DNA from: Riptortus pedestris
Lineage: Eukaryota > Arthropoda > Insecta > Hemiptera > Alydidae
Direction of reading: 5' to 3'
NCBI GenBank assembly: GCA_019009955.1
Contig: JADPXZ010000011.1
Span: 36,156 to 100,155 of the forward strand
Length of the DNA stretch: 64,000 nucleotides
A program made the position numbers and the translations under genes. The notes below the pieces were generated by a model that saw nothing but the letters and a program-made list of their open reading frames with translations, did not search any database and was not told where the DNA came from. This document shows positions 974-57,603 of this stretch, piece by piece; the first letter of the stretch is position 1, and each line of letters opens with the position of its first letter.

Positions 974-1057
974 CTGCTGGAGATATTGATATTGTGCCGA
1001 AATCCATTAAAAATGAAGAGGATTCTGCTGACGAGGAGAGCCTCTGTATGCCTAGAG
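974..1057 (+). CDS. C2H2 gene copy 1, linker exon A (phase 1-1)
   Basis: The acceptor ends in ccagtag and the donor is G|gtaatc. The exon is 84 nt, 2 nt + 27 codons + 1 nt. It encodes an acidic linker with SIKNEED (psi-K-x-E) followed by DEESLCMPR. It is the paralogue of the exon at 31255-31332, and the flanking introns match too (590-973 with about 30850-31254). The upstream exons of this gene copy lie outside the window. An acceptor 3 nt earlier would add one in-frame codon. Function is inferred only: a flexible, possibly sumoylated segment of a zinc-finger protein. Confidence 0.75.
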
Positions 1058-1553: not shown

Positions 1554-1628
1554 GCAGCGAACAAGTGTGGAAACACATTAAACAGGAACCAGCTGTGGAA
1601 CTACCTACATATTATGGAGAGCTTGAAC
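1554..1628 (+). CDS. C2H2 gene copy 1, linker exon B (phase 1-1)
   Basis: The acceptor is ttatttgcag and the donor is C|gtgagt. The exon is 75 nt, 2 nt + 24 codons + 1 nt. It encodes SEQVWKHIKQEPAVELP and a short tail with YYGELE. The IKQE motif fits the SUMO consensus psi-K-x-E. The paralogue at 31577-31651 has IKPE instead. The intron to exon A is 496 bp here and 244 bp in copy 3. Confidence 0.75.
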
Positions 1629-5141: not shown

Positions 5142-5246
5142 ATACAGATAAAGCAGTCTTCATCTGCCATCACTGCCAGCGAGCCTGGAAATCATTCATT
5201 TCACTGAGGCGCTGTGTTCACAAGTGCTTCCATTCAACAATCACTA
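5142..5246 (+). CDS. C2H2 gene copy 1, atypical finger exon C (phase 1-1)
   Basis: The acceptor is tgtattccag and the donor is A|gtaagt. The exon is 105 nt, phase 1-1. It encodes FICHHCQRAW, a hydrophobic spacer and LRRCVHKCFH. The pattern is C-x2-C-x12-C, with cysteine where a C2H2 finger has its first histidine; the fourth ligand could be C (x3) or H (x5). The same substitution is present in the copy at 37764-37868. It probably folds as a C2HC-type or degenerate finger preceding the main array. Confidence 0.75.
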
Positions 5247-5616: not shown

Positions 5617-6140
5617 AGTTCCACCTCAAACTACTTAAGTCGCCATCCACTGGAGTACAAACATCAAGGTTCTATAGAAGTTCAATACAAGAAGTGAATC
5701 TATCTAAGGAATGCTCACCTGTAACTGCGTTGGCTGAGAAACATTTTACCTGTTGTGAATGCAGTTATAGCACAAAATATAGACATCACTTAAAGCAGCA
5801 CATACAGGCTAAACATTCAAATGATAGACCTCACTCCTGCTCTTATTGTGATTACAGTACTGTCAATGCTAGTAATCTAAAGCGTCACATACAGACTAAT
5901 CATTCAAATGATAGACCTCACTCCTGCCCCTACTGTGAATACAGTACTGTTCGGGCTTGCGATCTAAAGCGTCACATACAGGCTAAACATTCAAATGATA
6001 GACCTCACTCCTGCCCCCACTGTGAATACAGTGCTGTTCAGGCTAGTCAACTAAAGCAGCACATACAGGCTAAACATTCAAGTGATTACCTCACTCCTGC
6101 CCCTACTGTTTACACAGTACTATTCATTCTGGCTATCTAA
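5617..6140 (+). CDS. C2H2 gene copy 1, terminal exon with 4 zinc fingers
   Basis: Acceptor at ttttttag (5615-5616), phase-1 start, reading FHLKLLKSP through EVNLSKECSP into four C2H2 fingers (C-x2-C-x12-H-x4-H; linkers SNDRPHS). The helix -1,2,3,6 residues of fingers 2-4 are N,S,N,R, R,C,D,R and Q,S,Q,Q. After finger 4 (AKHSSD) a one-base deletion removes the TAA found at the homologous place in copies 2 and 3, so translation runs out of frame for about 20 residues to TAA 6138-6140. Likely a nuclear DNA-binding protein. The array is much shorter than the 15 fingers of copy 3. The first exons lie off the window. Confidence 0.75.
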
Positions 6141-18290: not shown

Positions 18291-18753
18291 TTTTAATAAC
18301 TATTTAATTCATAAATTAGATGTATGCTAAATTGGGAATTACAAAGATGTCGGCGATGTAAGTAAGATGAGTAGTAAGGAAACAAGGGAAGCATTGGGCC
18401 CGTTGTACTGGAGTAGAGAGGATGAAGGCTGAGGCACTGTTCCCAGGTTGCTTCGATGGAAATACATTTCAATAAATCCTTTTCCCAATTTAGCTAAAAG
18501 GGAACTTTGTCTCTTGTATGCTTAGCCTGTATGTGCACCTTCAGATGGCGAGCCTGAAAAGTACTGTATTCACAGTGGGACAGGAGTGAGGTCTGTCATT
18601 TGCATGTTTAGCCAATATGTGCTGCTTTAGATTACCAGCCTGAACAGTACTGTATTCACAGTAGGGGCAGGAGTGAGGTTTGCCTACTGAATATGCAAGC
18701 TTTAGATAACCAGAATGAACAGTACTGTATAAACAGTAGGGTCAGGAGTGAGG
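18290..18753 (-). pseudogene. decayed fingers and 3' region of gene copy 2
   Basis: On the minus strand, downstream of the TAA after AKHSRD, more finger-like units follow (C..C..YSTV..G.LK), disrupted by stops and indels, as after the stop in copies 1 and 3. 18350-18480 matches the copy 1 and copy 3 3' UTR (6250-6420, 40910-41060). Confidence 0.6.
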
Positions 18754-19072
18754 TTAGTCTCTTGAATGTTTAGCCTGCATGTGACGCTTTATATTGAAAG
18801 CCTTGACTGTACTGTATTCACAGTGGGGGCAGGAGTGGGGTCTATCATTGGAATGTTTTGACTGTATGTGATACTTTAGATCACCAGCCCGAACAGTACT
18901 GTATTCACAATAGGGGCAGGAGTGAGGTCTATCATTTGAATGTTTAGCCTGTATGTGATACTTTAGATTGACAGCCTTGTCAGTTCTATATTCACAGTAG
19001 GGGCAGGAGTAAGGTCTATCATTTGAATGTTTGGCCTGTATGTGCAGCTTTAGATAGCAGCCCCGAACAGTA

Positions 19073-19073
<1 letters not shown>
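18754..19073 (-). pseudogene. C2H2 gene copy 2, truncated inverted finger exon
   Basis: The minus frame starts inside a finger (STVRGCYLKLHIQAKH) and continues through three complete C2H2 fingers with contact residues K,V,N,Y, R,G,D,Y and K,F,N,R, ending AKHSRD then TAA. Its 5' side is a (TA)n tract, past which the sequence matches the intron 5' of exon C of copy 1. Exon C, the following intron and the first fingers are therefore deleted. No acceptor site remains, so it is very probably a pseudogene. Confidence 0.75.

Positions 19074-19126
<53 letters not shown>
19074..19126. repeat. (TA)n microsatellite at a deletion joint
   Basis: About 50 bases of TA repeats, exactly where gene copy 2 departs from the structure of copies 1 and 3. 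Confidence 0.9.
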
Positions 19127-19127
<1 letters not shown>

Positions 19128-19990
19128 TAATCAAACGGAGGTGAAATAGCTCTGTTGCAGTAAACATCCACATTCAATGAACTTTCTATGAACTATGTAT
19201 ATTGTGGAGCAAACATTTCAAATAATAGCATTGCAAAACGTACAATTTTATGAATACATCAATAAAACAGTGTTTCCACTTCAAATTTCTTCAATGAATA
19301 ATGCACATTTGGAAATATTTCCATCATGACAAATCACTAAAAGTTTACAATCTTCTCAATAAGAAAATAAGTTATGTAATTCATTAATTTCCACTTTCGG
19401 TTACTATAGCTAATTGGGCCGGGTTATCTACAGGCTACCAACCTTTTCTAGCTAGAGTGGGACTGAGAATATAGGAAAATAAATCAGATATAGTAACTTA
19501 AGCCTGCTAGGAAAAATTTAAGGGCTAAAGCAAACTATCTTTTTATATGTGTGTATTTTTTTTGTTCAATTGAAATTATTATTTGGATTATTGGATGGGG
19601 AGAAGAGCGTTGGTGATACATGTGCCTCAAGTTGGTGAGCTTTACATATAGGATAAATGCACAATATGTATTATAGTAAGTAGAACACTAGTTGAGCAGT
19701 TAGTTGATTGAAGAAAGTGTAAGATTTATTATTATTTAATAGAACTTTCTTATCATTCAAAATATTGTAATGACCCAATGTCGTTGATTGTTATGTTTCC
19801 AGGGATAGGGTATTGTTGAAGGCATGTAACCAGTAAAAATAGGATCTACTGGTATTCAAGATATCGAGAGAAGACACCTTGTATAGCTCAACCTAATCTG
19901 TAAGAATTTAAATTATTTCTTTCAAATCAGTTTACACTTTTTTATAGGGCTCATCATTTATCCAACTCAGTCAAAAACCATGAATGAGAG
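19127..19990 (-). repeat. inverted duplicate of the intron preceding exon C
   Basis: Reverse complement of about 4265-5095, with many identical stretches (for example tctgttgcagtaaacatcca and the SINE tail at 19395-19490). It joins copy 2 to its LINE neighbour, so gene and LINE were duplicated and inverted as one block. Confidence 0.75.
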
Positions 19991-27721: not shown

Positions 27722-28840
27722 ACCTATCGGTGGAGACCGTCGTCACTGGCTGATGGTTGAGTACCGCTGGCAAGCGCTTTCGATGCGATGGCATCATCTT
27801 CAAGCCTGTCAATAGTTGTACTGAGTTGGTTGTCCGTCAGTCAGTGGGTTTTATGCTCTGTTCACCGTATTAGTTGTTTACGTTTAGTCCAGATCTGTTT
27901 ACTTACCACTAAGATCTGTCAAACGAGGGATGTTGATGTTCAGGTAAATTGTTTTCGTGTGGTGGGTTGTTTACGTTTTAAATCGAGATCTGTTTACTTA
28001 CCACTCAGATCTGTCAACGGGTTGTGTTGGTGTTCAGGTGAATTGTTATGGTGGTGGGTTGTTACGTTTTATTAGATCTGTTTACTTACCATTCAGATCT
28101 GTCAAACGAGGTGCGTTTTAACTAGTGTTCAGGTAAATGTTATCGTGTAGTGGGTCTTAGACCTCGTCCGTATGGGTCGTTTACATTCTAGTGTCATTGT
28201 TTGTGTGGTGGTCTGGTATAATTTGATATGTAGATACGGGTTTAATGTGATATTTGTAACATTGTTATTATTCATTAAAAATGATGTATCATAGATAAAT
28301 AAACAAGTGATTAAATACAATATGGAACTACCTATGTCGTCGCTTTGTCTGTTGATAATCCTGCGTGAGTCCGTCCGTTGGCGTCTTCCGTTTATTATTC
28401 CTTTTAAATAGTTGTAGTGGTCTGAAGATCGTGTCCGAGCTGGTGTTGAGCTGTTCGTTGATGATGTCTCCGTTGAATGTCCGTTGTTTGTATATCTCCA
28501 TATTCTCTAGTATGTTCAATCGTCGGCCTCTGTCGGTGTAGAAGTTTCATGCAGTCAGCTATACTCGTCGGGTCGTGGCAGTGGTCGTTCAGGTGGTTGG
28601 CGAAATTGGAGTCTCGTTTGTTTAGTCTGAATGAGCGGATATGTTCGGTGTATCGCGTCTTCAGTCTCCTTCCAGTTTGTCCAATGTATGTGTTGTTACA
28701 GCTGCACGTGAGTTTATAAACTCCGTTCGTATTCATCATCAACGAACAGCTCAACACTAGCTCGGACACGATCTTCAGACCACTACAACTATTTAAAAGG
28801 AATAATAAATGGAAGACGCCAACGGACGGACTCACGCAGG
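27722..28840 (-). mobile_element. Penelope-like element fragment
   Basis: Contains a GIY-YIG endonuclease on the minus strand, about 600 bp of non-coding sequence downstream of it, three tandem units of about 90 bp (27873-28150, each with agatctgtttacttacca) and an inverted repeat of about 100 bp (28373-28472 with 28735-28835). Its outer sequence (cggtggagaccgtcg, ctggctgatggt) recurs at 37328-37376. The reverse transcriptase is missing. Confidence 0.7.
28340..28735 (-). pseudogene. GIY-YIG endonuclease of a Penelope-like element
   Basis: The minus frame reads GVYKLTCSCNNTYIGQTGRR, then TRYTEHIRSFRLN, FANHLNDHCHD, CMKLLH: the GIY-YIG pair (here GVY and YIG), the following arginine and a conserved H-rich section. 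A frameshift near 28520 moves the conserved C-terminus (LNILENMEIYKQRTFN, FRPLQLF) to another frame. In intact elements this domain is C-terminal to the reverse transcriptase and nicks target DNA. The N-terminal 35 residues of the longer ORF (to 28835) come from the inverted repeat and are not part of the domain. Confidence 0.75.
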
Positions 28841-28853
28841 ATTAGTTTTCTGG

Positions 28854-28914
28854 CTTAGCTCCATTTAAAAAGAAGAGGATTCTATGGATGAGGAAAGCCT
28901 CGATATATCTAAAG
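28854..28914 (+). pseudogene. broken linker exon A remnant
   Basis: Matches the A exons at 974, 30589 and 31255: agctccatt, then gaagaggattct, gatgaggaaagcctc, and a donor-like AAAG|gttata. The codon for the psi-K-x-E lysine is TAA. The 5' half of the exon is missing at the Penelope-like boundary. Not usable as an exon. Confidence 0.55.
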
Positions 28915-29423: not shown

Positions 29424-29448
29424 ATGAGCTTGCCCCACAATATGAATG
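29424..29448 (+). CDS. copy 3 exon 1
   Basis: ATG at 29424 gives MSLPHNMN plus one base; donor G|gtgagt. The downstream exons are all phase 1-1, so this start fits without adjustment. The paralogous sequence at 22138 supports the ATG position. Confidence 0.65.
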
Positions 29449-32400
29449 GTGAGTAGTTGTTCTACAGCTATATATTAGTGCTTTTAAATCGTTGATGTAA
29501 CTAATTTTCTCCAAAATGGTTATTGTAAGTGATTTAGAGTAAGGTAATGTAGGTCATTCCTTTGTTCCTTGTTGATTCCTTCTTACTACTTTCTCACACG
29601 TTTATATTGCTAATTCTAGTGCTTTTTAAAAAGATTCATGAAAACTTTAAAATCAATTTTGACCAGCGTTCATTTTCTTTGTTAGTAATGTTTTTCCTAC
29701 ACATTTTTTTTATTTATTTTGACATGAGTATTTCAAACCTCCACGTTGGGAAATATCTATGTTTATAAAATCCCCTATGTATAGCAGATTTATAGATTTT
29801 ATCCACATATTTGGCCTTTTGTAGGTGTAATATTTATTCGACTATTTAAAGTTTGAATTGTTTAGTATTACATAACTTTATAAGTTATCCTTTATGCTGT
29901 GAGTAGACAGAGTTTGGGGTCATTAACAGGAAGCCCTGTCTTTATTCCAGATACTAATGATACATATTCCTTTGTTTTATGTGTATAATTGCTTTGTTGA
30001 TGGCGTGTAAAGTGTTAATTTCTTAACTTGTTTATTTATTTCCAATATTGCATAATATATTCGATTTGCCTTGATGTAGCTGCTCCAGGATCTAGCCTTG
30101 ATGGAGTTGCTGCCAAGACAGAACCTGTGTACTATTTGCATGACGAGCCATCTACTTCAGGTAAATATTTATAGAATGAATATGCTACATAATTGACCAC
30201 ATTACTTGTTTATTTATTATGTATAGAAGGTTCATTAATATTTAAATACATTAAGTTTTTAATATTGTTAATCTCAAATGTATCTTATAATACGCATGAG
30301 AATCAGAATTGTTCAGTCTGAGAGAAGCCCTGAGAAAGCTGGGAGCATGTATAGCGAAACATCTTTGGCAATGGAATCGTAGAAAATCATCCCCCAAAGG
30401 CCTTAATTTGAATAAGAGTTGCCTAAAGCATTAAAATATGTAGAAGGCTCTGAATTGTTTTATATTCTAATTAGTAATTTTGGTGAATTGAATAGCTATC
30501 CCCTCTAATTTGCCAATGTTAATTAGAGCAACAATTATATTAAATGCTATATAAGTGAGTTAATATCAATATGTTTTCTCCTGAGCAGCTGCAGGATGCA
30601 TGGGCTTTAGGCTGAGCTCCATTAAACAAGAAGAGGATTCATCAGATGAGGAAAGCCTTTCTGTGTCTACAGGTAATATAACACATCATCTTCTCTGTTT
30701 TGTCTCCTCTAAATTTGCGTATCTCTCCCTGTTGGACTTATCATAGGAAATTCCCACAACTTTCATTTCACTTTATTTAGACGATCATAGATAAACATAA
30801 ATAGTCACTACCCACTATTGGAGATTGCTGATTCACCTGAATTTCATATTTAATGGCACTTATTTCCATGGAAACCTTGCTTTATTCCTACCTATGGATA
30901 TACCTCGACTCTCGGTTAGCCTTGTCTCGAGGCATTTATAGCACATCACATAAAGTCAATTCAATTGTTTTATTTTCTATTTGCATAAAAAAAAAGTAAC
31001 TAGCACATATGTTTTTTCCAAAGGGAATTTACACTTACCATTCACATTTACCAGCACTTTTTTTTCTCTTAAAATATTGTACCAAAACTGTTATAGAACG
31101 TAATTTGATTTTTTTATTTTCGCCCCTCCTTTTGATTCAATTTTGAATGAAAGGAGAGGTGCACTACTAGACGATACAATAGCCCTATTTTACTAATAAT
31201 TTAGTTCATTGGTAATACTAGCTTTATTAATACAGTGTATTTTGTTGCTGGTAGCTGCTATTGATATTTCGCCGAGCTCCATTAAAAATGAAGAGGATTT
31301 TTCGGACGAGGAAAGCCTCTGTATGCCTAGAGGTAATCTAACACATCCTCTTGCGTTTTATTCTCTTTTTTTCAGGTATAAAGCAATAGAAAGATTGGAT
31401 GGAATGGAACCTGCGATGCTGATATGCAAAGCATTTACCTCTCTAGCAAATCCTTGTCTGACAAGCTTTCCCTCACTCTCTGGCAGAGGAGCGATAATTC
31501 TAACTAGCTGTAGTCATGTGAAAGATTTGTACCATTGCCAGTTATATTTGTAGTAATTGTCAGTTGTTATTTGCAGGCAGTGAACAAGTGTGGAAACACA
31601 TTAAACCGGAATCAGCTGTGGAACTACCTACATATTACGGAGAACTTGTATGTGAGTATATTTGGCCTAGTAAAATAAGATCCACTTTTAACTTAACTAT
31701 TCTGCATTTAGCTGTTCTCTATAAGAATTACAAACAACTTAATCGACTAATTTTCTTGAAATAATGTGTCATTTTGCTTTATTAGATGAAATTCAAAGTG
31801 CATTATCTATATATATATATATACTAGCTCAGATACCCGGCTTCGCCCGGGAATTCATTTGAGGCTGAATGGTGATGGTACTTTTTTGGCAAGGCTTTAC
31901 TTTGTGCAATATTTTGACATTTACCCGTCCCAGTGTTTAGGGTTAATACCCGTCGTTGGCATTTGTTAATAATAAAATTAATTTTTTATATAAATCTTCA
32001 CTGTCGTCCAAATTGTCATATTTCCCGTCTCCTGTGCATTATGCATAGATTTCAGCTATTAAGGACAAAATATTAACATTGATTTGAATTAATTTTTCCA
32101 GCTGAGGTACCTGATAGTTCAAATAGGAATGAATTGTTGAGCATATCAATATTTCTACGCAAATTACTTGCTCCACACATTTTTCCTGGAGAAATGTATA
32201 AAAAAAAAAAGTTAATCTAAATAACAAACTAAACAACTTTTGTTATGTGCATGTTTGTCGAAAAACAAATAGACAATGAAATATCCTGAATTTTTATTTC
32301 AGGTCTCCCTTATAACCGCCACTCCCGTTCAAACCTAAACATTTTAATATAGCTTATAATCATGGAAGAATTAATGCTAATTGACATACCGAGTTTTGTT

Positions 32401-33174
32401 AAGTTCGGTTCAATCGTTAGCGCCCAATAAAATAGATGACTCCAGCTATAGATTTTAGCGTATATCTCGTTTATAATTCGGTATAAGAAAAAAGTGTATA
32501 TAACAAAAGTTACTCTAAATAACTAAATAAACAACTTTTGTTATGTTCATATTTGCCGAAACCCCAATAGGAAACGAAATATCGCTATTGTTAATTTCTG
32601 GCTTCCCTCATAACCCCCACTCCTGCCCGTCCCTAGAAATGTTGGTATCGATTGTTATAATGAAAGAGTTAGTGCTAATACAGATACCGAGTTTTATTTA
32701 TTTCGGTTGGGTCTTTTGTCCCAAATAAAATTGTTCACTTCCGCTATAGGTTTTAGTGTATATCTCGTTTATAATTCGGTATACGAAAAAAGTGTATATA
32801 ACAAAAGTTACTCCAAATAACAAAATAAACAACTTTTGTTATGTTCATATTTGCCGTAAAACCAATAGGAAACGAAATATCGCTATTTTTAATTTCTGGC
32901 TTCCCTTATAACCCCCACTCCTGTTCATCACAGAGGAAATTAATATAGCCTAAAGTCTAAGTTGGGTTAGTAGTAATATACATACCAAGTTTCATAAAAT
33001 TCGGTTCAGCCGTTTATGCGTGAAAAGGTAACAAACAAACAAACAAATAAACAAACAAACAAACAAACAAACAGACACGAAAGAAACAAAATGCAGTTAT
33101 GGTGTCTATGGCATGTGAAACGAAAAGTTATCGTGAAATTTCGCGAAAAAAATCAATGTACAGACAGAGGTTAC

Positions 33175-33238
<64 letters not shown>

Positions 33239-36200
33239 GTAACCTCTGTCTGTGCATAGATTTTTTTCTCGAAATTTCACGATAACTTTTCGTTTCACAA
33301 GTTATAGACACCATAACTGCATTTTGTTTCTTTGGTGTGTGTTTGTTTGTTTGTTACCTTTTCACGCATAAACGGCTAAACCGAATTTTATGAAACTTGG
33401 TATGTATATTACTACTAACCCAACTTAGGCTTAAGGCTATATTAATATTCTCTGAGACGAACAGGAGTGGGGGTTATAAGGGAAGCCAGAAATTAAAAAT
33501 AGCGATATTTCGTTTCCTATTGGTTTTTCAACAAATATGAACATAACAAAAGTTGTTTACTTTGTTATTTAGAGTAATTTTTGTAATATACACTTTTTTC
33601 GTATACCAAATGATAAACGAGATATACGCTAAAACCTATAGAGGAAGTGAACAATTATATTTGGGACAAAAGACTCAACTGAAATAAATAAAACTCGGTA
33701 TGTGTATTAGCACTTACGCTTTTATTATAATAAGCCATACCAACAATTCTAGGGATGGGAAGGAGTGGGGGTTGTACGGGAGGCCTGAATTTAAAAATAG
33801 CAGTATTTCGTTTTCTATTCATATTTTGATAAATATGAACATAACAAAAATTGTTTATTTTGTTATTTAGAGAAACTTTTTTTTATATACACTATCATCG
33901 TATACCGAAGTATAAAGGCGTTATACGCTAAAAATTATAGTGGGAGACAACAATTTTATTTGGCACAAAATACTCAACCGAACTAAATAAAACACTCAGT
34001 ATGTGTATTAGCACTAACGCCTTCCTTATAATAAGCCATACTAACATTTCTAGGGACGGGCAGGAGTGGGGGTTATAAGGGAGGCCTGAAATTAATAATA
34101 ATGATTTCCTATTGGCAAATATGCACATAACAAAAGTTGTTTATTTTGTTATTTAGAGAAATTTGCTCAACACTTTTCAATATGAACTACCAGGTACCTC
34201 ACGTGAAAAAATTAATTCAAATGTATGTCAATATTTTCTCCTTAATAATTCAAATCTATGCATAATGCACAGGAGACGGGAAATATGACAATATGCAGGA
34301 CAGTGAAGTCTTACATAAAAAAATAATTTTATTATTAACAAATGCCAACAACGGGTATTAACCCTAAACACTGGAACGGGTAAATGTCAAAATATTGTGC
34401 AAAGTAAAGCCTTGCCAAAAATATACCATCACCATTCAGCCTCAAATGAATTCCCAAGCGAAGCCGGGTATCTGAGCTAGTATATATATAAAATTGTAAC
34501 CTCTGTCTGTACATTGATTTTTTTCGCGAAATTTCACGATAACTATTCGTTTCACATGTCACAGACACCATAACTGCATTTTGTTTCTTTGGTGTCTGTT
34601 TGTTTGTTACCTTTTCACGCATAAACGGCTGAACCGAATTTTATGAAACTTAGTATGTATATTACTACTAACCCAACTTAGACTTTAGGCTATATTAATG
34701 TTCTCTGAGACGAACAGGAGGGTTATAAGGGAGTGCTGAAATTAAAAATAGCAATATTTCGTTTCCTAATGCATTTTCGGCAATTATGTACATAACAAAA
34801 GTTGTTTATTTTGTTATTTGGAGTAACTTTTGTTATATACCTTTTTTTCGTATACCAAATTATAAACGAGATATAAGCTAAAACCTATAGCGGAAGTGAA
34901 CAATTTTATTTGGGACAAAAGACCAAACCGAAATAAATAAAACTCGGTATATGTATTAGCACTAACGCTTTCATTATAACAAGTCATACCAACATTTCTA
35001 GGGACGGGCAGGAGTGGGGGTTATGAGGGTTGCCAGAAATTAAAAATAGCGATATTTCGTTTCGTATTGGTTTCATGGCAAATATGAACATAACAAAAGT
35101 TGTTTATTTTGTTATTTAGAGTAACTTTTGTTATATACACTTTTCTTTTATAACAAAGTATAAACGAGATATACGCTAAAAACTAAAGCAGGGGCAACTA
35201 TTTTATTGGGCACTAACGGTAGAACCGAACTTAACAACACTCGGTATGTAAATTAGCATTAATTCTTCCATGATTATAAGCTATACTAAAAATTTTAGGT
35301 TCCAAGGGGAATGGGGGTTATAAGGGAGGCCTGAAATAAAAATTCGCGATATTTCATCGTCTATTTGGTTTTTGGCAATCGTGCACATAACATAAGTTGT
35401 TTACTTTTTTAATTAGTGTAAATTTTTTTTTATAATTATTTTTTTTGTAAAATAAGGTATGAAGGAAGTAATTTGCTTAGAAATATTGATAAGCTCAACA
35501 ATACATTCCAATATGAACTACCCAGGTATCTCACCTGGATAAGTTAATTCAAATCCATGTTAGAATTTTATCCTTAATAATTCAAAACTATGTTATTTTT
35601 TAACGCCAGTAACAGTTTGCACCAAATAAGGTATACTGCCCCCACCCTTCTCTAAGTGTATTTAATACATTATTTAATTAAAACGTGAAAAATATTTGAA
35701 ACAGTTTTAGAATTCTGAAGATAATGTAATATGATTTTTTAATATATTTGAATGTATTAGAGGATAGCTATCCAAAATGCATTGCAGGTTGGCAGCACTG
35801 AGGCTATGTAGATGTCGAGCTACTTCCTTTGTCCTATCAGTTCTGCCGCATCCCTTCCGACCTCATATTGGTCTATGTTTACATGTTAATTGATGCTTAC
35901 AGCAATGTATTATTATTCTCAGGAATGTGAATTTCTTTAATTATCATAAATAAATAATTTACAAGAATAAACGCTAGGGAGGTGCACTCAGGTATTTCTA
36001 GTATTTATTAACTCTGCTCCGTTAATGTATTATGATATACTTTACTGAAAACCAATATGAATACACAGTTTACAATCGAGACTTATGAAAGAGTGTTTTA
36101 ATAGAGGCTATGACATACCTAAAACAGCTGTCACCGTTGGACATTGTACCGCATGAAGGGAAAGAAACTTATTCATACTAGTACGAGGTTTGGAAGATAG

Positions 36201-39200
36201 AATACATTCTAGGATTATGAATTATATGGTCCATCACTTTATAAAAAAAAAAACTACATACACAGAGGACGGGAAATATAAAAATATTGAGGACAGTGAA
36301 GTCTTAAATATCAAATAATTTTATTATTAACAAATCCACAGTAACGACGGGTATAAATTCTAAACACTGGGACAGGGAAATAAAAAAAATATTGTGGAAA
36401 CTAAAGCCTTGCCAAAAACATACCATCTTCATTCAGCAGAGTTCTGCAGATGTAATTGTTGTTGGGGAGATGGAGTCGAGTTGGCGGGCTTCTCTGGCTG
36501 CTAAATCTGCTTTTTCGTTTCCTACGTGGCTTGGAATCCACATGAAGTAGACGACCCTTTTTAGCTCTCGGAGCATTTGTATTTGATTTTGTATTTTTTT
36601 ATTATTGGGTTGTTTGTAAATACATCTTTGATACTCAATAGGGCACTCAACGAGTCAGTGCAAATCAGGAATTTTTCTTGAGTCGAGTGTTTGCAAATGC
36701 AGTGATATAAAGCAAATTGAATTACGAATCGGAATAGATTCTGGTTAGTTTGTTGAGTTTGAATTTTTGGCAGGCATTTTCTTCGTTGTAGGCACAGGAG
36801 GAAGACTCAGAAAAATCATACCTACTTTAATTCATTTTAAATGGGTGAAAGCACATGCAGGATTTATGGGCAAAAAAATAGTCGATATCCAAGCCATAAG
36901 GATATCGACTATTTTTTTGCCCATAAATCCTGCATGTGCTTTCACCCATTTAAAATAAATTAAAGTAGGTATGATTTTTTAATTTTGTTATATTATTACG
37001 TTTTTTGTGTTTTTTATGTTATCTAGTTTGTGTGCGTGCAGTATAATGTAAATGCTTGGTAGCAAATCCATTTCATTTACATACGTGAGAGCCTGTAAGA
37101 TGACAATACCCGCTGCCTGGTTAGGAGAACAATGGTTGCATAATTTAAATTGTTTACATTTTATAACATCGTCAGTTTTATTTTCTTCAAAAATAATAAA
37201 GGTACCATCTATGCCTATCCCTGCTACCGCCTGTTTAAATTGTGCATTGCTATGAATGATTTGTATATTGGTAATTCAAATAAAGGGTTAGAGCCGCCAG
37301 TATAAATGATTCTGTTGTCATAGCTGTCGGTGGAGACCGTCGCCACTGGCTGATGGTCGAGTACAGCTGGCAAGGTTTCAACGAGTGTTCTACTTACTAT
37401 AATACGTATTGTGCATTTATCCTTTATCTAAAGCTCACCAACTTGAGGCACAAGTATCACCAACATTCCTCTCCCCAACCAATCATCCAAATAATAATTT
37501 CAATTGAACAAAAAAAAAATACACACATATAAAAAGATAGTTTGCTCGAGCCCTTGAATTTTTCCTAGAAGGCATAAGTTACTATATCTGATTTATTTTT
37601 CTATATTCTCAGTCCCACTCTAGCTAGAAAAGGTTGGTAGCCTGTAGATAACCCGGTCCAATTAGCTATAGTAACTGAAAGTGGAAATTAATGAATAACA
37701 TAACTTATTTTCTTATTGAGAAGATTGTTGTGTGATTTGTAATTGTAATATAATGTATTCCAGATAAAGATAAAGCAGTCTTCATCTGCCATCACTGCCA
37801 GCGAGCCTGGAAATCATTCATTTCACTGAGGCGCTGTGTTCAGAAGTGCTTCCATTCAACAATCACTAGTAAGTACTTTTTGAATTGATTATTTTATGTA
37901 TATGGCTTGGTTTCTTATTTATTTTGGAGCCATCCTATTGAGGAGAATATTTTTTTCTAAATATGCCAATGGTTGCCTCAAAAGTTCAGTTTCTGAACAG
38001 AATCAAACATGTATTAAATATACTTTATTTTACTGATATTTAAGATGAAAAACACAAAATTAAAAATTTAGTAACTGTTACATATGTAGACAGATCCAAG
38101 AGCTTTGATTTTGAAATTAATAATTTGGAGAGAATTTGAAAATAGTGCTACTCTTAATTTCAAGAGAACCTAAATTGTATTTTCAAGTACCCAGTTGTTA
38201 CAATCTGGCTGCGGCGATAAGCAGTGGAAGCTGAAATATATAAAAAATCCCACAACCAAACCACTAACAAGAATTTAGGAAGGGCCCACCAACAATCGAC
38301 TCAAGTCAAAATTCAAATATATATAAATTTATTTAAAATAAAAATATTCCCTAATTATAATTATTAATCAAAATCAAGAAACACCTTTAAAAATATAATG
38401 GGGGACACTTAATTCTACTTAGACTATATTACAATTGAAACACTTAGCTGTTTAATAGAAGTGCTGACTTAGCCGTGAGAGGTAGTACAGTCGAGTAGGC
38501 TGGCTCAGGCAGGCCGGATCTGGCAAAAGGATTAGTGATGTCTCACCAACAAGGGTCTCCCCTCCAGAGGATGCCGGAAATGACTGATTTTAATCTGTCT
38601 TGTCTGGGTCCTTATATAGGCCTAGCCCAGCGGTGAACTTTGAACTGCCAATCGAAATACACTCAAAAAGTGCATTTAAAGGGAATTAATTATCGAAATT
38701 CATCCGTATTATTAATTAGCAAACCGACGTTAAGAGCTGTGAATGTTATTATCAAAATCCATCCGCGTTATCTAAGAAAATGCTAGAGCACATGGTGCCA
38801 TCACTCCAAATTGGATATAATTCTTATTTAAAGGTTAAAACAATACATTTAAGCATTCACAAATAATAATCTTAATGTGCTCTGTGCTGGGAATACTCAG
38901 AATATAAAATATGTTGTCATTTATAATGGGCTTATGTAATGCAATGTCAATTTCATTACACAGTGAAGTCAGAATTAGACTTTTACTCTTGTTAAACCTA
39001 CAACCACGCACTGTGATTTTTAGTCAAATAGGCATGGAATTAACTTTGCACATTACCATAATATGTGTAGTTTTGATTATACCATTTTTTAAATATTGAA
39101 ATTAGATGACAATGTTCCGTAAGAGGGATTTCATATAAATCTGAATTGCACATTTATGAAAAATATCAGTTATTGAATTAATTAAATTGCATTAATTATT

Positions 39201-40745
39201 TCTCTGCAATTGTGTAAATAGTATAGTTTTAGGAGTATAAAAATATTAAATAATTGAAAATAAAAGGTAAACTAATTGCTACCTGATTGCTAATTCTGTT
39301 TAAATGATGTTTTAGAGTCCCACCTCAAAATACTTAAGTCGCCATTCACTGGAGTAAAAACATCAAGGTTCTATAGAAGTTCAAGGCAAGAAGTGAATCT
39401 ATCTAAGGAATGCTCACCTGTAACTGATGGGGCTGAGAATCATTTTACCTGTTGTGAATGCAGTTATAGCACAAAATATAGACATCACTTAAAACAGCAC
39501 ATACAGGCTAAACATTCAAATGATAGACCTCACTCCTGCCCTTACTGTGAATACAGTACTGTTTGGGCTTGGTATCTAAAGCAGCACATACTGGCTAAAC
39601 ATTCAAATGATAGACCTCACTCCTGCCCCCACTGTGAATACAGAAGTGTTTGGACTGTCAGTCTAAAGCGTCACGTACTGGCTAAACATTCAAATGATAG
39701 ACCTCACTCCTGCCCCCACTGTGAATACAGTACTGTTCTGGCTGGTGATCTAAAGCGTCACATACTGGCTAAACATTCAAATGATAGACCTCACTCCTGC
39801 CCCTACTGTGAATACAGTACTGTTCGGGCTTACGATCTAAAGCGTCACATACTGACTAAACATTCAAATGATAGGCCTCAATCTTGTCCTTACTGTGAAT
39901 ACAGTGCTGTTCGGGCTAGTCAACTAAAGCATCACATACTGGCTAAACATTCAAACGATAGACCTCACTCCTGCCCTTATTGTGAATACAGTACTGTTTT
40001 TTCTGGTCAACTAAAGAAGCACATACTGGCTAAACACTCAAACGATAGACCTCACTCCTGCCCTTACTGTGAATACAGTACTGTTTGTTCTGGTCAACTA
40101 AAGAAGCACATATTGGCTAAACATGCAAATGATAAACCTCACTCCTGCCCTTACTGTGAATACAGTACTGCTCGGGCTTGTTATCTAAAGCATCACATAC
40201 AGGTTAAACATTTAAATGATAGACCTCACTCCTGCCCCCACTGTGAATACAGTACTGCTCTGGCAAGTGACCTAAAACGCCACATACAGGCTAAACATTC
40301 AAATGATAGACCTCACTCCTGCCCCCACTGTGAATACAGTACTGTTCAGGCTGTCAGTCTAAAGCGTCACGTACTGGCTAAACATTCAAATGATAGACCT
40401 CACTCCTGCCCCCACTGTGAATACAGTACTGTTCTGGCTGGCAATCTAAAGCATCACATACAGGCTAAACATTCAAATGATAGACCTCACTCCTGTCCCC
40501 ACTGTGAATACAGTACTGTTCGGGCTGACAATCTAAAGCATCACATACAGGTTAAACATTTAAATGATAGACCTCACTCCTGCCCCCACTGTGAATACAG
40601 TACTGCTCTGGCAAGTGACCTAAAACGCCACATACAGGCTAAACATTCAAACGATAGACCTCACTCCTGTCCCCACTGTGAATACAGTACTGTTCGGGCT
40701 GTCAATCTAAAGCATCATATACAGGCTAAACATTCAAGTGACTAA
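29424..40745 (+). CDS. C2H2 zinc-finger gene copy 3, complete, 7 exons (625 aa)
   Basis: Join of 29424-29448, 30080-30160, 30589-30672, 31255-31332, 31577-31651, 37764-37868 and 39316-40745. The total is 1878 nt = 626 codons including TAA, with no internal stop; every intron is GT..AG and every junction is in phase 1. Order: 8-residue start; four linkers, each with a psi-K-x-E-like motif (AKTE, IKQE, IKNE, IKPE); a C-x2-C-x12-C atypical finger; a basic stretch; then 15 C2H2 fingers of 29 residues (C-x2-C-x12-H-x4-H, linker SNDRPHS). Family knowledge suggests a nuclear sequence-specific DNA-binding protein; the lysine motifs suggest sumoylation (inferred). Intron 5 (6.1 kb) is filled with repeats. 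No protein name recognised. Confidence 0.8.
30080..30160 (+). CDS. copy 3 exon 2, linker (phase 1-1)
   Basis: Acceptor gatgtag, donor G|gtaaat, 81 nt. Encodes APGSSLDGVAAKTEPVYYL then HDEPSTS. AKTEP is the weakest of the psi-K-x-E motifs. No paralogue of this exon is seen in copy 1's visible part. Confidence 0.65.
30589..30672 (+). CDS. copy 3 exon 3, linker A-type (phase 1-1)
   Basis: Acceptor ctgagcag, donor G|gtaata, 84 nt. Encodes SSIKQEEDSSDEESLSVST. IKQE followed by acidic and serine residues resembles a negatively charged SUMO motif. It is a tandem paralogue of exon 4. Confidence 0.75.
31255..31332 (+). CDS. copy 3 exon 4, linker A-type (phase 1-1)
   Basis: Acceptor ctggtag, donor G|gtaatc, 78 nt. 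Encodes SSIKNEEDFSDEESLCMPR, with the motif IKNE. Closest to copy 1 exon 974-1057, from which it lacks two codons. Confidence 0.75.
31577..31651 (+). CDS. copy 3 exon 5, linker B-type (phase 1-1)
   Basis: Acceptor ttatttgcag, donor T|gtgagt, 75 nt. Encodes VWKHIKPESAVELPTYYGEL. IKPE replaces the IKQE of copy 1. Confidence 0.75.
31824..33180 (+). mobile_element. Helitron-like repeat, near full length
   Basis: Runs from CTAG (31824-31827) and the cccggcttcgcccggg hairpin to ggttacaatttta at 33169-33181. The body has internal subrepeats of about 300 bp (aacaacttttgttatgt, ccccactcctg, tcggttcagccgttt). Ends lie in TA-rich DNA. An (AAAC)n run lies at 33030-33075. No recognisable gene. Confidence 0.55.
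33181..33233. repeat. (TA)n microsatellite between two opposed repeat copies
   Basis: About 50 bases of TA. The same terminus (aaaattgtaacctctgtctg) leads away from it on both sides, in mirror orientation. Confidence 0.9.
33231..34480 (-). mobile_element. Helitron-like repeat, inverted copy
   Basis: Mirror-image partner of 31824-33180, starting at aaaattgtaacctctgtctg and ending hairpin-tctgag-CTAG at 34477-34480. Body subrepeats match those of the neighbour. Several short open frames here are fragments of these subrepeats. Confidence 0.55.
34488..36437 (-). mobile_element. Helitron-like repeat, third copy, truncated
   Basis: Starts with the same terminus right after the preceding copy's CTAG and TA tract. 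It contains three or more of the 300-bp subrepeats and the shared segment about 35500-36240. It is broken at about 36437 (cattcagc) by LINE sequence, losing the hairpin end. Confidence 0.55.
36438..37261 (-). pseudogene. LINE RNase H fragments
   Basis: The minus frame at 36720-36450 reads EKFLICTDSLSALLSIKDVF and VYFMWIPSHVGNEKADLAAR: the catalytic D of the TDS motif and the GNEKAD end of a LINE RNase H. A second, different RNase H (CSPNQAAGIVILQALTYVNE) lies at 37170-37060, as at 2640-2880. Between them sits a palindrome. Two LINE families are nested here. Confidence 0.65.
36811..36979. repeat. near-perfect palindrome, 80-bp arms
   Basis: Arms 36811-36890 and 36900-36979 are reverse complements with about one mismatch, around a 9-base loop. 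The arm encodes an RNase H tail (KWVKAHAGFMGKKIVDIQA), so it arose by inverted duplication of a LINE segment. Confidence 0.9.
37262..37376. repeat. Penelope-like terminal fragment
   Basis: cggtggagaccgtcg, ccactggctgatggt and gctggcaag match 27728-27774, the outer part of the Penelope-like element. Gene copy 3 homology to copy 1 resumes directly after it. Confidence 0.5.
37610..37700. repeat. SINE tail-like repeat
   Basis: Same as 4745-4860, at the equivalent intron position, so it predates the duplication of the gene. Confidence 0.55.
37764..37868 (+). CDS. copy 3 exon 6, atypical finger (phase 1-1)
   Basis: Acceptor tgtattccag, donor A|gtaagt, 105 nt. Encodes FICHHCQRAWKSF and LRRCVQKCFH. 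Nearly identical to exon 5142-5246; H becomes Q inside the last loop (CVHKC to CVQKC), leaving the C-x2-C-x12-C plus C or H ligand set. Confidence 0.75.
38107..39166. mobile_element. insertion in copy 3 intron 6, LTR-like
   Basis: The intron matches copy 1 up to agagcttt (38106) and again from cagttattgaattaatt (39167), with 1.06 kb absent from copy 1 at 5466. Inside, ttgttacaatctggctgcgg starts a block with a TATA-like ccttatataggc at about 38620. 38190-38340 recurs inverted at about 7795-7935. A solo LTR is one reading; I could not find a coding frame or clear target duplication. Confidence 0.45.
39316..40745 (+). CDS. copy 3 exon 7, 15-finger terminal exon
   Basis: Acceptor atgttttag; phase-1 start reads SHLKILKSPFTGVKTS, then EVNLSKECSPVTDG and the array to TAA 40743-40745. 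Each unit is 87 bp. Contact residues (-1,2,3,6) of fingers 2-15: WWYQ, WVSR, LGDR, RYDR, RSQH, FGQK, CGQK, RCYH, LSDR, QVSR, LGNH, RDNH, LSDR, RVNH; finger 1 is YHHQ. Positions 1 (A/T/S), 4 (L) and 5 (K) and the ligands hardly vary. The short acidic linker replaces the usual TGEKP. Confidence 0.85.
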
Positions 40746-45648: not shown

Positions 45649-46817
45649 ATCAGCTGAGGAGGGTGTCAGCAAGGAGGGGAGGTAGTGCTATGACAGTTGG
45701 GATGTCTGTACTGCACAATCAACATGGATCAGCTGAGGAGGGGAGGTAGTGCTATGACAGTTGGGATGTCTGTACTGCACAATCAACATGGATCAGCTGA
45801 GGAGGGTGTCAGCAAGGAGGGGAGGTAGTGCTATGACAGTTGGGATGTCTGTACTGCACAATCAACATGGATCAGCTGAGGAGGGTGTCAGCAAGGAGGG
45901 GAGGTAGTGCTATGACAGTTGGGATGTCTGTACTGCACAATCAACATGGATCAGCTGAGGAGGGTGTCAGCAAGGAGGGGAGGTAGTGCTATGACAGTTG
46001 GGATGTCTGTACTGCACAATCAACATGGATCAGCTGAGGAGGGTGTCAGCAAGGAGGGGAGATAGTGCTATGATAGTTGGGATGTCTGTACTGCACAATC
46101 AACATGGATCAGCTGAGGAGGGTGTCAGCAAGGAGGGGAGGTAGTGCTATGACAGTTGGGATGTCTGTACTGCACAATCAACATGGATCAGCTGAGGAGG
46201 GTGTCAGCAAGGAGGGGAGGTAGTGCTATGACAGTTGGGATGTCTGTACTGCACAATCAACATGGATCAGCTGAGGAGGGTGTCAGCAAGGAGGGGAGGT
46301 AGTGCTATGACAGTTGGGATGTCTGTACTGCACAATCAACATGGATCAGCTGAGGAGGGTGTCAGCAAGGAGGGGAGGTAGTGCTATGACAGTTGGGATG
46401 TCTGTACTGCACAATCAACATGGATCAGCTGAGGAGGGTGTCAGCAAGGAGGGGAGGTAGTGCTATGACAGTTGGGATGTCTGTACTGCACAATCAACAT
46501 GGATCAGCTGAGGAGGGTGTCAGCAAGGAGGGGAGGTAGTGCTATGACAGTTGGGATGTCTGTACTGCACAATCAACATGGATCAGCTGAGGAGGGTGTC
46601 AGCAAGGAGGGGAGGTAGTGCTATGACAGTTGGGATGTCTGTACTGCACAATCAACATGGATCAGCTGAGGAGGGTGTCAGCAAGGAGGGGAGGTAGTGC
46701 TATGACAGTTGGGATGTCTGTACTGCACAATCAACATGGATCAGCTGAGGAGGGTGTCAGCAAGGAGGGGAGGTAGTGCTATGACAGTTGGGATGTCTGT
46801 ACTGCACAATCAACATG
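45649..46817. repeat. minisatellite, 79-bp unit, 15 copies
   Basis: Unit starts at 45649, 45728, 45792 and then every 79 bp to 46740. Copy 2 is 64 bp (15-base deletion). Units are otherwise nearly identical; the copy from 46029 has two changes (ggagat, gatagttgg). GC content is well above the surroundings. The small ORF at 46709-46897 is only repeat sequence. Confidence 0.97.
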
Positions 46818-49939: not shown

Positions 49940-50661
49940 TCAAACTAGAGAAAGGCTGAGATTAGGGTGCTTACTTTTAAAGTGAGCCTTGAGACCAGAA
50001 AACTGCACACAAGCAAAGGGACAGTGGGGACATTTGTTTGGTCTTTCACGAGTATGCTTAGCAATTATGTGATTTCTTAAATTTGTATATTCGACTGTAG
50101 TATAGCTACAGTGAGGACATGCTTTAGGCTTTACTACTGAATGTTTGGCCCAGATGTGGTTCTTCAAGTTTATCGACTGTACCGCAGCATAAGTACAGTA
50201 AGGGCATTTATGTGTTTTTTCGCCTGTATGTTTGGCTCTTATATGATTTTTCAAGTTGCGACATTCGACAGTCGCATAATTGCAATAAGGGCATTTCCTC
50301 GGCTTTTCGTGAGTGTGTTTAGCCATGATGTGGTTCTTCAGCCTTATTGAATTGCCAGTCTTAGAATGACAGCAAGGGCATTTACGCAACTTCTCATGCT
50401 TCTTTGTCTGCTTCATCCAACCTTCAGCCTTTACTAATTTAGACGTGAGGAGACGATTGATTATAGCTCTGCAATGTGAGCAGCTATTACATTCGAAGGA
50501 GGAGTTGCTGTCTCCTAGAGGAGTCGTGCGGAATGGGCATGTATCCACGTTCCTTGATGCTGCCTCACAAGGGAGTGTATCATTGAATGTAGTATTAGTT
50601 TCTTCAAAGGGAATGTCCAATGCCGGCTCTTCCTTTATTTGAATACCTATGTCTCCTCTAC
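49940..50661 (-). CDS. five-finger C2H2 terminal exon of the PWWP gene
   Basis: The acceptor ttgtttacag gives a phase-1 start at 50661; open to TGA at 49942-49940. It begins RGDIGIQIKEEPALDIPF, closely resembling exon 55171-55245, then has a cysteine-rich FECNSCSHC segment and five fingers (CPCCHSKTG; CPYCNYATV; CPYCTYAAV; CPHCSYTTV; CPHCPFACV; all H-x4-H with the second histidine in a (A/S)KH end). Linkers (HEKPR, GEKTH, RERPN) are closer to the classical TGEKP than in copies 1-3. Predicted nuclear DNA-binding protein; IKEE fits the SUMO consensus. An ATG inside the intron side (50716) is not needed if spliced. Confidence 0.75.
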
Positions 50662-55170: not shown

Positions 55171-55245
55171 TTTTAGATTCATCAAAGTTCGTGGGAATAT
55201 CGAAGGGTGGTTCTTGCTTTATTTCCCTTCCTACATCTCCAATAC
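55171..55245 (-). CDS. PWWP gene linker exon (phase 1-1)
   Basis: Acceptor gttttcag, donor A|gtaagt, 75 nt, 2 nt + 24 codons + 1 nt. Encodes GDVGREIKQEPPFDIP and a short tail. It resembles the start of the terminal exon (GDIGIQIKEEPALDIP), so the two arose by exon duplication. IKQE is a SUMO-type motif. Confidence 0.7.
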
Positions 55246-56966: not shown

Positions 56967-57040
56967 CTACTTGCCCTTGGACAGAGTTATTTCAGGTGGT
57001 GAGTCTTCTTCTATAACAGTAGTCTGGCTACCTTTATTGT
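56967..57040 (-). CDS. possible alternative terminal exon of the PWWP gene
   Basis: Acceptor ttaattgttgcag, phase-1 start, reads NKGSQTTVIEEDSPPEITLS and KGK then TAG (56969-56967). AATAAA follows at 56960-56955. The opening NK matches that of the exon at 57121-57189. Using this exon would end the protein before any zinc finger. A GT at the stop could instead act as a donor but would break the phase pattern. Confidence 0.4.
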
Positions 57041-57120: not shown

Positions 57121-57189
57121 CAGTAGATATAGCCGAATCAGATGAAGAGTTTTCTTCTTTCATTGCAGAAGAAAGGCTTATTTTATTGC
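57121..57189 (-). CDS. PWWP gene small linker exon (phase 1-1)
   Basis: Acceptor ttttattacag, donor G|gtaagc, 69 nt. Encodes NKISLSSAMKEENSSSDSAI then ST. MKEE fits psi-K-x-E and is followed by a serine/acidic tail like the A exons on the plus strand. Confidence 0.65.
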
Positions 57190-57269: not shown

Positions 57270-57603
57270 CTTGAGGTGTGTGTTTGTGAGTCAAATTTTC
57301 ACAATTCTCCTTATATTCTTTAATCTCTTCAAGTGCAGCTACAAATTTATGATTTCGGGTGCCTTTCTTACAATTGTGCACAATCTCCTGATAAGGTTGT
57401 AGTTTATCGATTCCAATCCATGAATAGTTCCAAAGAAAAACACGCATAAACCTGTTCCCCGGGAAGGTTTTTTCAGCTCTTGGGTCGGATTGGTAATTAG
57501 CGCAGGCCAAGGTGGGTAGCCTCGCATTTTTGCCCACACTAAATCTCCAATTGCAAATTCTCCTGTGCCCTTGTTTGTTCTTGATGAAGAGCAATTGAGG
57601 AAT
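57270..57603 (-). CDS. PWWP-domain exon with a frameshift
   Basis: Acceptor ttgttttgtttcag, donor G|gtgagc (phase-1 end). The first frame reads EFAIGDLVWAKMRGYPPWPA, NPTQELKKP, CVFFFGT; the rest of the domain is in another frame: YSWIGIDKLQPYQEIV, KFVAALEEIKEY. The switch lies at about 57425-57429 and equals one missing base. PWWP domains bind methylated histone H3 tails and DNA; the order of motifs is closest to the NPAC/GLYR1 (NDF) PWWP in my memory, but no dehydrogenase follows. The frameshift may be a sequence error or a real lesion. The upstream exons are not identified. Confidence 0.7.

Follow-up and report, generated by a model that had tools for sequence, protein, structure and literature searches.

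The ZF271-like or APEZ genes of Hemiptera are described as a lineage-specific expansion of C2H2 zinc-finger genes with clusters, long tandem arrays and pseudogenes; in the sections of that source that bear on the present genes, clustered members vary in the number and size of their exons, fingers are their only domain (no KRAB), and a direct orthologue of vertebrate KAP-1 is lacking in insects (PMC6444547). KRAB-C2H2 genes, according to the relevant sections of another study, carry N-terminal effector boxes on small separate exons upstream of one finger exon, are often clustered, and have effector exons that degenerate or are lost between orthologues (PMC2443715). Here we describe a C2H2 gene of Riptortus pedestris, gene B, and its relatives. 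Gene B lies on the plus strand of the window, a stretch of 64,000 nucleotides that corresponds to C11:36156-100155 of the 1.08-Gb assembly GCA_019009955.1, where C11 is contig JADPXZ010000011.1, 100 kb in length. Upstream of its finger array are very small exons that begin with two nucleotides of a codon and end with one (phase 1-1), most of which encode one copy of psi-K-x-E.

Gene B has seven exons (Table 1), from a 25-nucleotide start exon at 29424 to a stop codon at 40745, and its spliced frame of 625 amino acids is stop-free. AKTE, IKQE, IKNE and IKPE fall at residues 20, 47, 73 and 98 of the spliced product, on exons of three recurring types that we call B2, type i and type ii. The core of SUMO substrates, psi-K-x-E, is thus present, and its lysines are putative acceptors. 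Next comes exon B6, whose finger-like unit has cysteines in place of both histidines, and the terminal exon encodes 15 C2H2 fingers (matches to C..C.{12}H.{3,5}H) that have intact zinc ligands and match Pfam zf-H2C2 families. When 13 fingers are compared, places -1, 2, 3 and 6, assigned by the standard C2H2 scheme, show 255 nonsynonymous and 15 synonymous codon-pair differences, versus 289 and 177 at all other finger places. This substitution pattern is that of putatively diversifying DNA recognition.

Like the ZF271-like or APEZ genes, the genes described here are clustered, expanded, array-bearing and variable in exon number, a likeness of description and not of phylogeny. Unlike those genes, whose account mentions no N-terminal exon module, phase or SUMO-type motif in the sections concerned, they have recurring types of phase 1-1 exon, mostly with one core each. 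Small upstream exons, a single finger exon, clusters and exon loss also recall KRAB-C2H2 genes as those are portrayed in the sections drawn on above. Unlike in KRAB-C2H2 genes, the first 306 amino acids of gene B contain no KRAB at E 0.1, and the effector candidate is a short motif repeated over several exons. The same 306 residues contain no zf-AD at E 0.1, the domain by which ZAD proteins are recognized. A protein search with the N-terminal part retained none of 609 candidates at E 0.001, a longer one gave 328 matches, among which none of the 120 listed covers more than 66% of the query, and Rfam gave no matches. KRAB exons are phase 1, and tandem duplication of in-frame exons is known in general. 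Unlike such general duplication, the genes here repeat a near-identical exon as many as six or seven times, and every copy contributes one candidate modification site. A literature search joining SUMO and exon terms returned, among the matches listed, no duplicated exons that each carry a SUMO motif, which does not prove that none has been described. The multiplied motif exon seems to be a new variation on a published theme; expanded C2H2 families with variable exon number have already been published, as the sections cited above describe (PMC6444547).

The exons of gene B belong to a genome-wide family, and the wider search for phase 1-1 motif exons that the original prediction called for extends its ten exons to that family. 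A two-finger probe has at least 214 genome matches; among those listed, most are in clusters on C4, many of them at 139.3-139.7, 145.5-147.4 and 153.2-153.5 Mb. That C11 is an alternative copy of another locus is unlikely, given that the best full-length two-finger match off the contig is 84%. At lax limits the genome holds 75 matches to B6 (E 0.1), 54 to type ii, 77 to type i and 76 to B2 (E 10), and by-eye counts at E 0.001 are 71, 36, 16 and 49 in the same order. Stops are absent from 73/75, 51/54, 74/77 and 74/76 of the matches, respectively. Borders and motif retention were counted in the part of these matches whose DNA was read, and the border count is confined to matches of at least 14 amino acids, those of types i and ii being ungapped. 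Phase 1-1 borders are found in 53 of 57 B2, 57 of 73 type-i, 48 of 51 type-ii and 14 of 17 B6 copies, and phases 0-0 and 2-2 in none of the copies scored. The exons have the symmetric phase of cassette exons. This is a large, genome-wide and apparently still-expanding C2H2 zinc-finger gene family.

The number of motif exons varies from gene to gene. Neighbouring exon matches form 99 chains, of which 40 run from B2 to B6 and 20 are a lone B6 (the input was 69/75 B6, 53/54 type-ii and 75/76 B2 matches, the weakest being omitted, and 77/77 type-i matches). Linker exons in the 40 chains number one (5 chains), two (16), three (8), four (7) or five (4), counts in which undetected exons are taken as absent and some chains may fuse two genes. 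A gene at C1:82.02 Mb has no detected B4 or B5, locus L026 has an additional type-i exon after B5, and C32 has three B2 exons. On C22 (L098, C22:25600-33600), six tandem 75-nucleotide type-ii exons lie within 2.9 kb, with the acceptor atttgcag and the donor gtgagtat in all six, five encoding IKEE and one IKKE, and with larger repeat blocks 91-97% alike. These exons are of two kinds, the first four alternating in units of ~1150 base pairs, so two-exon units were seemingly duplicated together. Seven related, stop-free type-ii exons at C2:13.664-13.679 Mb precede a B6 at 13.684 Mb; the first is 10 kb from the others and perhaps belongs to a separate gene, and the six that were read encode IKEE five times and IKVE once. 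Exons also die: a type-i copy at 28848-28911 of the window and a copy at C11:1770 both have a stop at the lysine codon. The proposal in the original prediction that exon duplication changes the number of motifs per protein is therefore supported on an evolutionary scale, by chains with one to five detected linkers, by the six- and seven-exon arrays and by the dead copies.

One copy bears on how the exons are joined. At C5:122938820-122939023 (two overlapping loci, L072 and L118), no intron separates a B2 from a type-i exon; the two meet precisely where the borders were predicted (EPSTS-AAGD, the junction also of gene B), and the frame continues into 16 nucleotides resembling, with a gap, the start of B6. 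The copy looks like reverse-transcribed spliced RNA, and such a putative fossil transcript shows B2 and type-i exons joined in a transcript. Its type-i peptide equals that of L073 (C4:139.44 Mb), whose chain is B2-i-B6 with no type-ii match; because that chain is also without type ii, the copy shows splicing at these borders and no skipping. Seven exon junctions were sought, with up to three mismatches, in 140 loci and the window, and none was found besides this copy. An AT repeat adjoins it.

The explanation towards which we lean is that these proteins combine a C2H2 array with a tail built from phase 1-1 exons, that the motif count is set gene by gene, and that the motifs act as SUMO acceptors that recruit repressors. 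The diversified finger array on the last exon would serve DNA recognition, and the N-terminal tail, probably flexible, would be built from the very small exons, among which B2, type i and type ii each normally encode one psi-K-x-E, followed by P (B2 and type ii) or by acidic and serine residues (type i). Duplication, loss or skipping of an exon leaves the frame unbroken, since every border is phase 1, so the number of motifs can be set per gene. If the motifs do accept SUMO, a DNA-bound protein could carry several SUMO groups on its tail, and these may recruit repressive chromatin factors, as KRAB does in vertebrates, and the tail would be an effector through SUMO whose strength could be changed by exon number. 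Synergy-control and negatively charged-residue SUMO motifs are classes known in transcription factors. By the usual definitions, the KxEP of B2 and type ii resembles the former and the psi-K-x-E with acidic residues of type i the latter, a likeness of sequence. Modification of Bonus, the sole TIF1 protein of Drosophila, by SUMO is indispensable for repression by this protein and influences its interaction with SetDB1, according to the pertinent parts of that study (PMC10672805). A more exact version, in which each exon adds one SUMO acceptor and repression strength is set by exon number (0 to ~7), changed by unequal crossing-over and replacing a KRAB-type domain, seems to us doubtful.

The alternative that survives best takes the tail exons as real and the motif as a by-product: the linkers would be disordered, acidic and lysine-containing, and gene and exon duplication would have spread them in the absence of selection for sumoylation. 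We consider this conceivable, if on the unlikely side. Strict psi-K-x-E is retained in 36 of 37 intact type-ii copies and in 49 of 63 intact type-i copies. The latter count is down from 50 of 64 because L072 is really the intronless copy, which is included in figures given per 61 distinct sequences or per 64 donors. Altogether, 74 type-i and 41 type-ii matches were scored, and 10 of the former (5 with the core) and 4 of the latter (2 with the core, and another a chance match) were set aside as not intact, window exon 57189 being among the 10 solely through a wrongly picked acceptor. In 32 distinct type-ii sequences, psi departs twice (I to V, still psi), K once and E never, which leaves Lys in 31 and Glu in 32, whereas the other 21 places depart a mean of 4.4 times each. 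Just 16 of 2024 position triples are as low as psi, K and E, which argues against a by-product. In 61 distinct type-i copies the first place is I in 55 (and V in 5), K is kept in 44 and E in 55, and 48 have the strict core. The core has moved one residue on (IIKE) in 9 of these copies, and one copy retains IKYE after the loss of a codon; survival of the type-i core through a one-residue shift likewise speaks against a by-product.

So does the rarity of the core in comparable DNA. Of 1042 stop-free AG..GT stretches of 60-111 nucleotides with phase 1-1 borders, found in the window off gene exons, 36 encode [VILMF]KxE; 7 of the 11 internal exons examined have the strict core, which arises in 1 to 8% of shuffles of each of nine linker peptides. 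A splice-quality filter leaves 35 candidates, and the 14 with a motif are border variants of eight gene exons, one of them being the start of the minus-strand terminal exon. These motif exons are not independent, since those at 974, 31255 and 30589 are of one type, those at 1554 and 31577 are of another, and genes A and B are duplicates. Moreover, psi-K-x-E alone is ordinary for the C2H2 class, because 33 other, non-redundant C2H2 proteins are enriched in it ahead of their fingers (32 occurrences versus 6.7 in shuffles, with a maximum of 15 in 1000 shuffles).

Several observations weigh against selection for SUMO acceptors, and some of them favour the by-product. Genes A and B are 89.7 and 90.7% identical in their motif exons and 91.5-95.8% in their introns, so the motif exons have diverged as much as the introns and are no more alike; synonymous and nonsynonymous counts within single exons are too few to carry weight. 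The type-i lysine, as noted, is in place in just 44 of 61 distinct copies, and Glu replaces it in eight that are otherwise intact, seven of one IEEEED kind from a single cluster (8 copies) and the remaining one IEKEK. This Glu-for-Lys subgroup has itself spread through C4:139.38-139.60 Mb (L016, L037, L066, L067, L070, L077, L079 and L080). Among 53 intact B2 exons, 31 have the strict core, 42 have it with Ala permitted, and 11 are coreless even then. The outcome is mostly favourable to the original prediction, which other phases together with a lost lysine in paralogous exons would have refuted: copies with other phases number zero and the type-ii lysine is nearly constant, but the type-i lysine is in place less often. 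Many copies are related through recent duplication, and the tandem arrays are too recent for their shared motif to say much about selection; the C22 array is followed by a 278-codon finger frame and a decayed B6. Probes that bear the motif also favour motif-bearing copies somewhat, and coreless probes were added. That a type-i subgroup and many B2 exons have lost the lysine speaks against a universal function of the putative acceptors.

The original prediction also invoked alternative splicing. If duplicated exons were used alternatively or mutually exclusively, splicing would set the number of motifs in place of gene-level dosage, which we judge unlikely. Type-i exons may be weakly defined, as their donors are mostly GTAATA or GTAATC and lack G at +5 in 63 of 64 intact copies, whereas type-ii donors are GTGAGT in 34 of 37 and have G at +5 in all 37; susceptibility to alternative splicing is common among KRAB A and second-box exons, in the part of that literature concerned (PMC2443715). 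However, the sole intronless copy includes its type-i exon, and although it is without type ii, so is the C4:139.44 Mb chain. The tandem copies on C22 and C2 are also near-identical, which leaves nothing for mutually exclusive use to choose between. Quite improbable is a docking motif for some other partner (KxEP with V-E-L-P in type ii, D-E-E-S-L in type i) to which the overlap with SUMO would be secondary: conservation does extend past the type-ii core (V 30, E 31, L 30 and P 29 of 32), and in the type-i DEESL the E, E and L (51, 54 and 58 of 61) match the core in constancy, but a shifted type-i lysine with the core retained is more readily reconciled with a short SUMO-type motif than with a fixed docking surface, and the enrichment before the fingers of the 33 other C2H2 proteins also tells against it.

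The window contains three spliced zinc-finger genes, genes A and B on the plus strand and one on the minus strand (Table 1). Part of gene A lies upstream of the window; its spliced open frame is 324 amino acids long. Seen from the window alone it resembled a 5'-truncated copy, its homology to gene B ending at 575, but exons B1-B3 sit just upstream and rule this out. The duplicated segment contains gene A (from 575) and gene B (from 30850), and B6, identical at 103 of 105 nucleotides, is the most alike of the exons compared. All eight plus-strand exons listed in the original prediction have AG/GT borders, and the minus-strand positions given there, 57121 and 55171, are the 3' ends of exons 57189-57121 and 55245-55171. 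The claim that every internal exon is phase 1-1 stands for all ten listed exons, whose borders and frame were checked, and holds for those alone because a PWWP exon apparently starts in another phase. The motif strings were given correctly, except that AKTE at 30080 carries Ala at the psi place. Further exons and copies came to light beyond that list: the dead copy at 28848-28911, exons B1-B3 of gene A, the candidate at 57040-56975 and the PWWP exon.

The PWWP exon precedes the motif exons of the minus-strand gene, and its donor phase fits theirs. Its first half matches Pfam at E 5.7e-13 and its second half at E 0.061. Together with the minus gene it may be a PWWP plus C2H2 gene or a relic of one. 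Exon 55171-55245 and the start of the terminal exon of this gene resemble one another.

Repeats and fragments lie among these genes. Direct and inverted copies of a repeat of ~298 base pairs fill intron 5 of gene B (window 31800-35700); similar DNA occurs near 14.6-15.2 and 26.7-27.4 kb, and a ~296-base-pair tandem lies at 61.9 kb. A 79-base-pair tandem repeat at 45736-46817 has 13.7 copies with 99% matches. An open reading frame at 28404-28841 (minus strand) that adjoins the dead type-i copy is by eye like a GIY-YIG element. A finger-array fragment of the same family lies at 18500-19173 (minus strand), beside an AT simple repeat, and linker-exon probes have no credible match near it.

Table 1. 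Exons and exon copies of the zinc-finger genes in the window (positions are those of the window)
Feature	Position	Strand	Remarks
Gene A exon 4 (type i)	974..1057	+	IKNE; second in-frame acceptor at 971
Gene A exon 5 (type ii)	1554..1628	+	IKQE
Gene A exon 6 (B6)	5142..5246	+	Finger-like C-x2-C-x12-C-x3-C, without motif
Gene A terminal exon	5617..6140	+	Finger array shorter than that of gene B
Dead type-i exon copy	28848..28911	+	Lys codon now stop; acceptor missing
Gene B exon 1 (B1)	29424..29448	+	Start codon; MSLPHNMN; phase-1 end; peptide shared with L010, upstream of gene A
Gene B exon 2 (type B2)	30080..30160	+	AKTE, then P
Gene B exon 3 (type i, B3)	30589..30672	+	IKQE, then acidic/serine stretch
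Gene B exon 4 (type i, B4)	31255..31332	+	IKNE
Gene B exon 5 (type ii, B5)	31577..31651	+	IKPE
Gene B exon 6 (B6)	37764..37868	+	Finger-like C-x2-C-x12-C-x3-C, without SUMO-type motif
Gene B terminal exon	39316..40745	+	15 C2H2 fingers; stop at end
Minus gene terminal exon	49940..50661	-	IKEEP near start; C2H2 fingers
Minus gene exon	55171..55245	-	IKQEP; related to type ii; phase 1-1
Minus gene candidate exon	56975..57040	-	Phase 1-1 only with GC donor; no psi-K-x-E (VIEED)
Minus gene exon	57121..57189	-	MKEE; phase 1-1
PWWP-domain exon	57270..57603	-	Reading frame broken; donor phase 1

The genes described here suggest that exon copying is a simple genetic way to dial the regulatory sites of a protein up or down. 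A conserved, countable motif tail is a concrete candidate for how the domain-poor zinc-finger proteins of Hemiptera may act, and natural genes with one to about seven motif exons would be a ready-made dose series.

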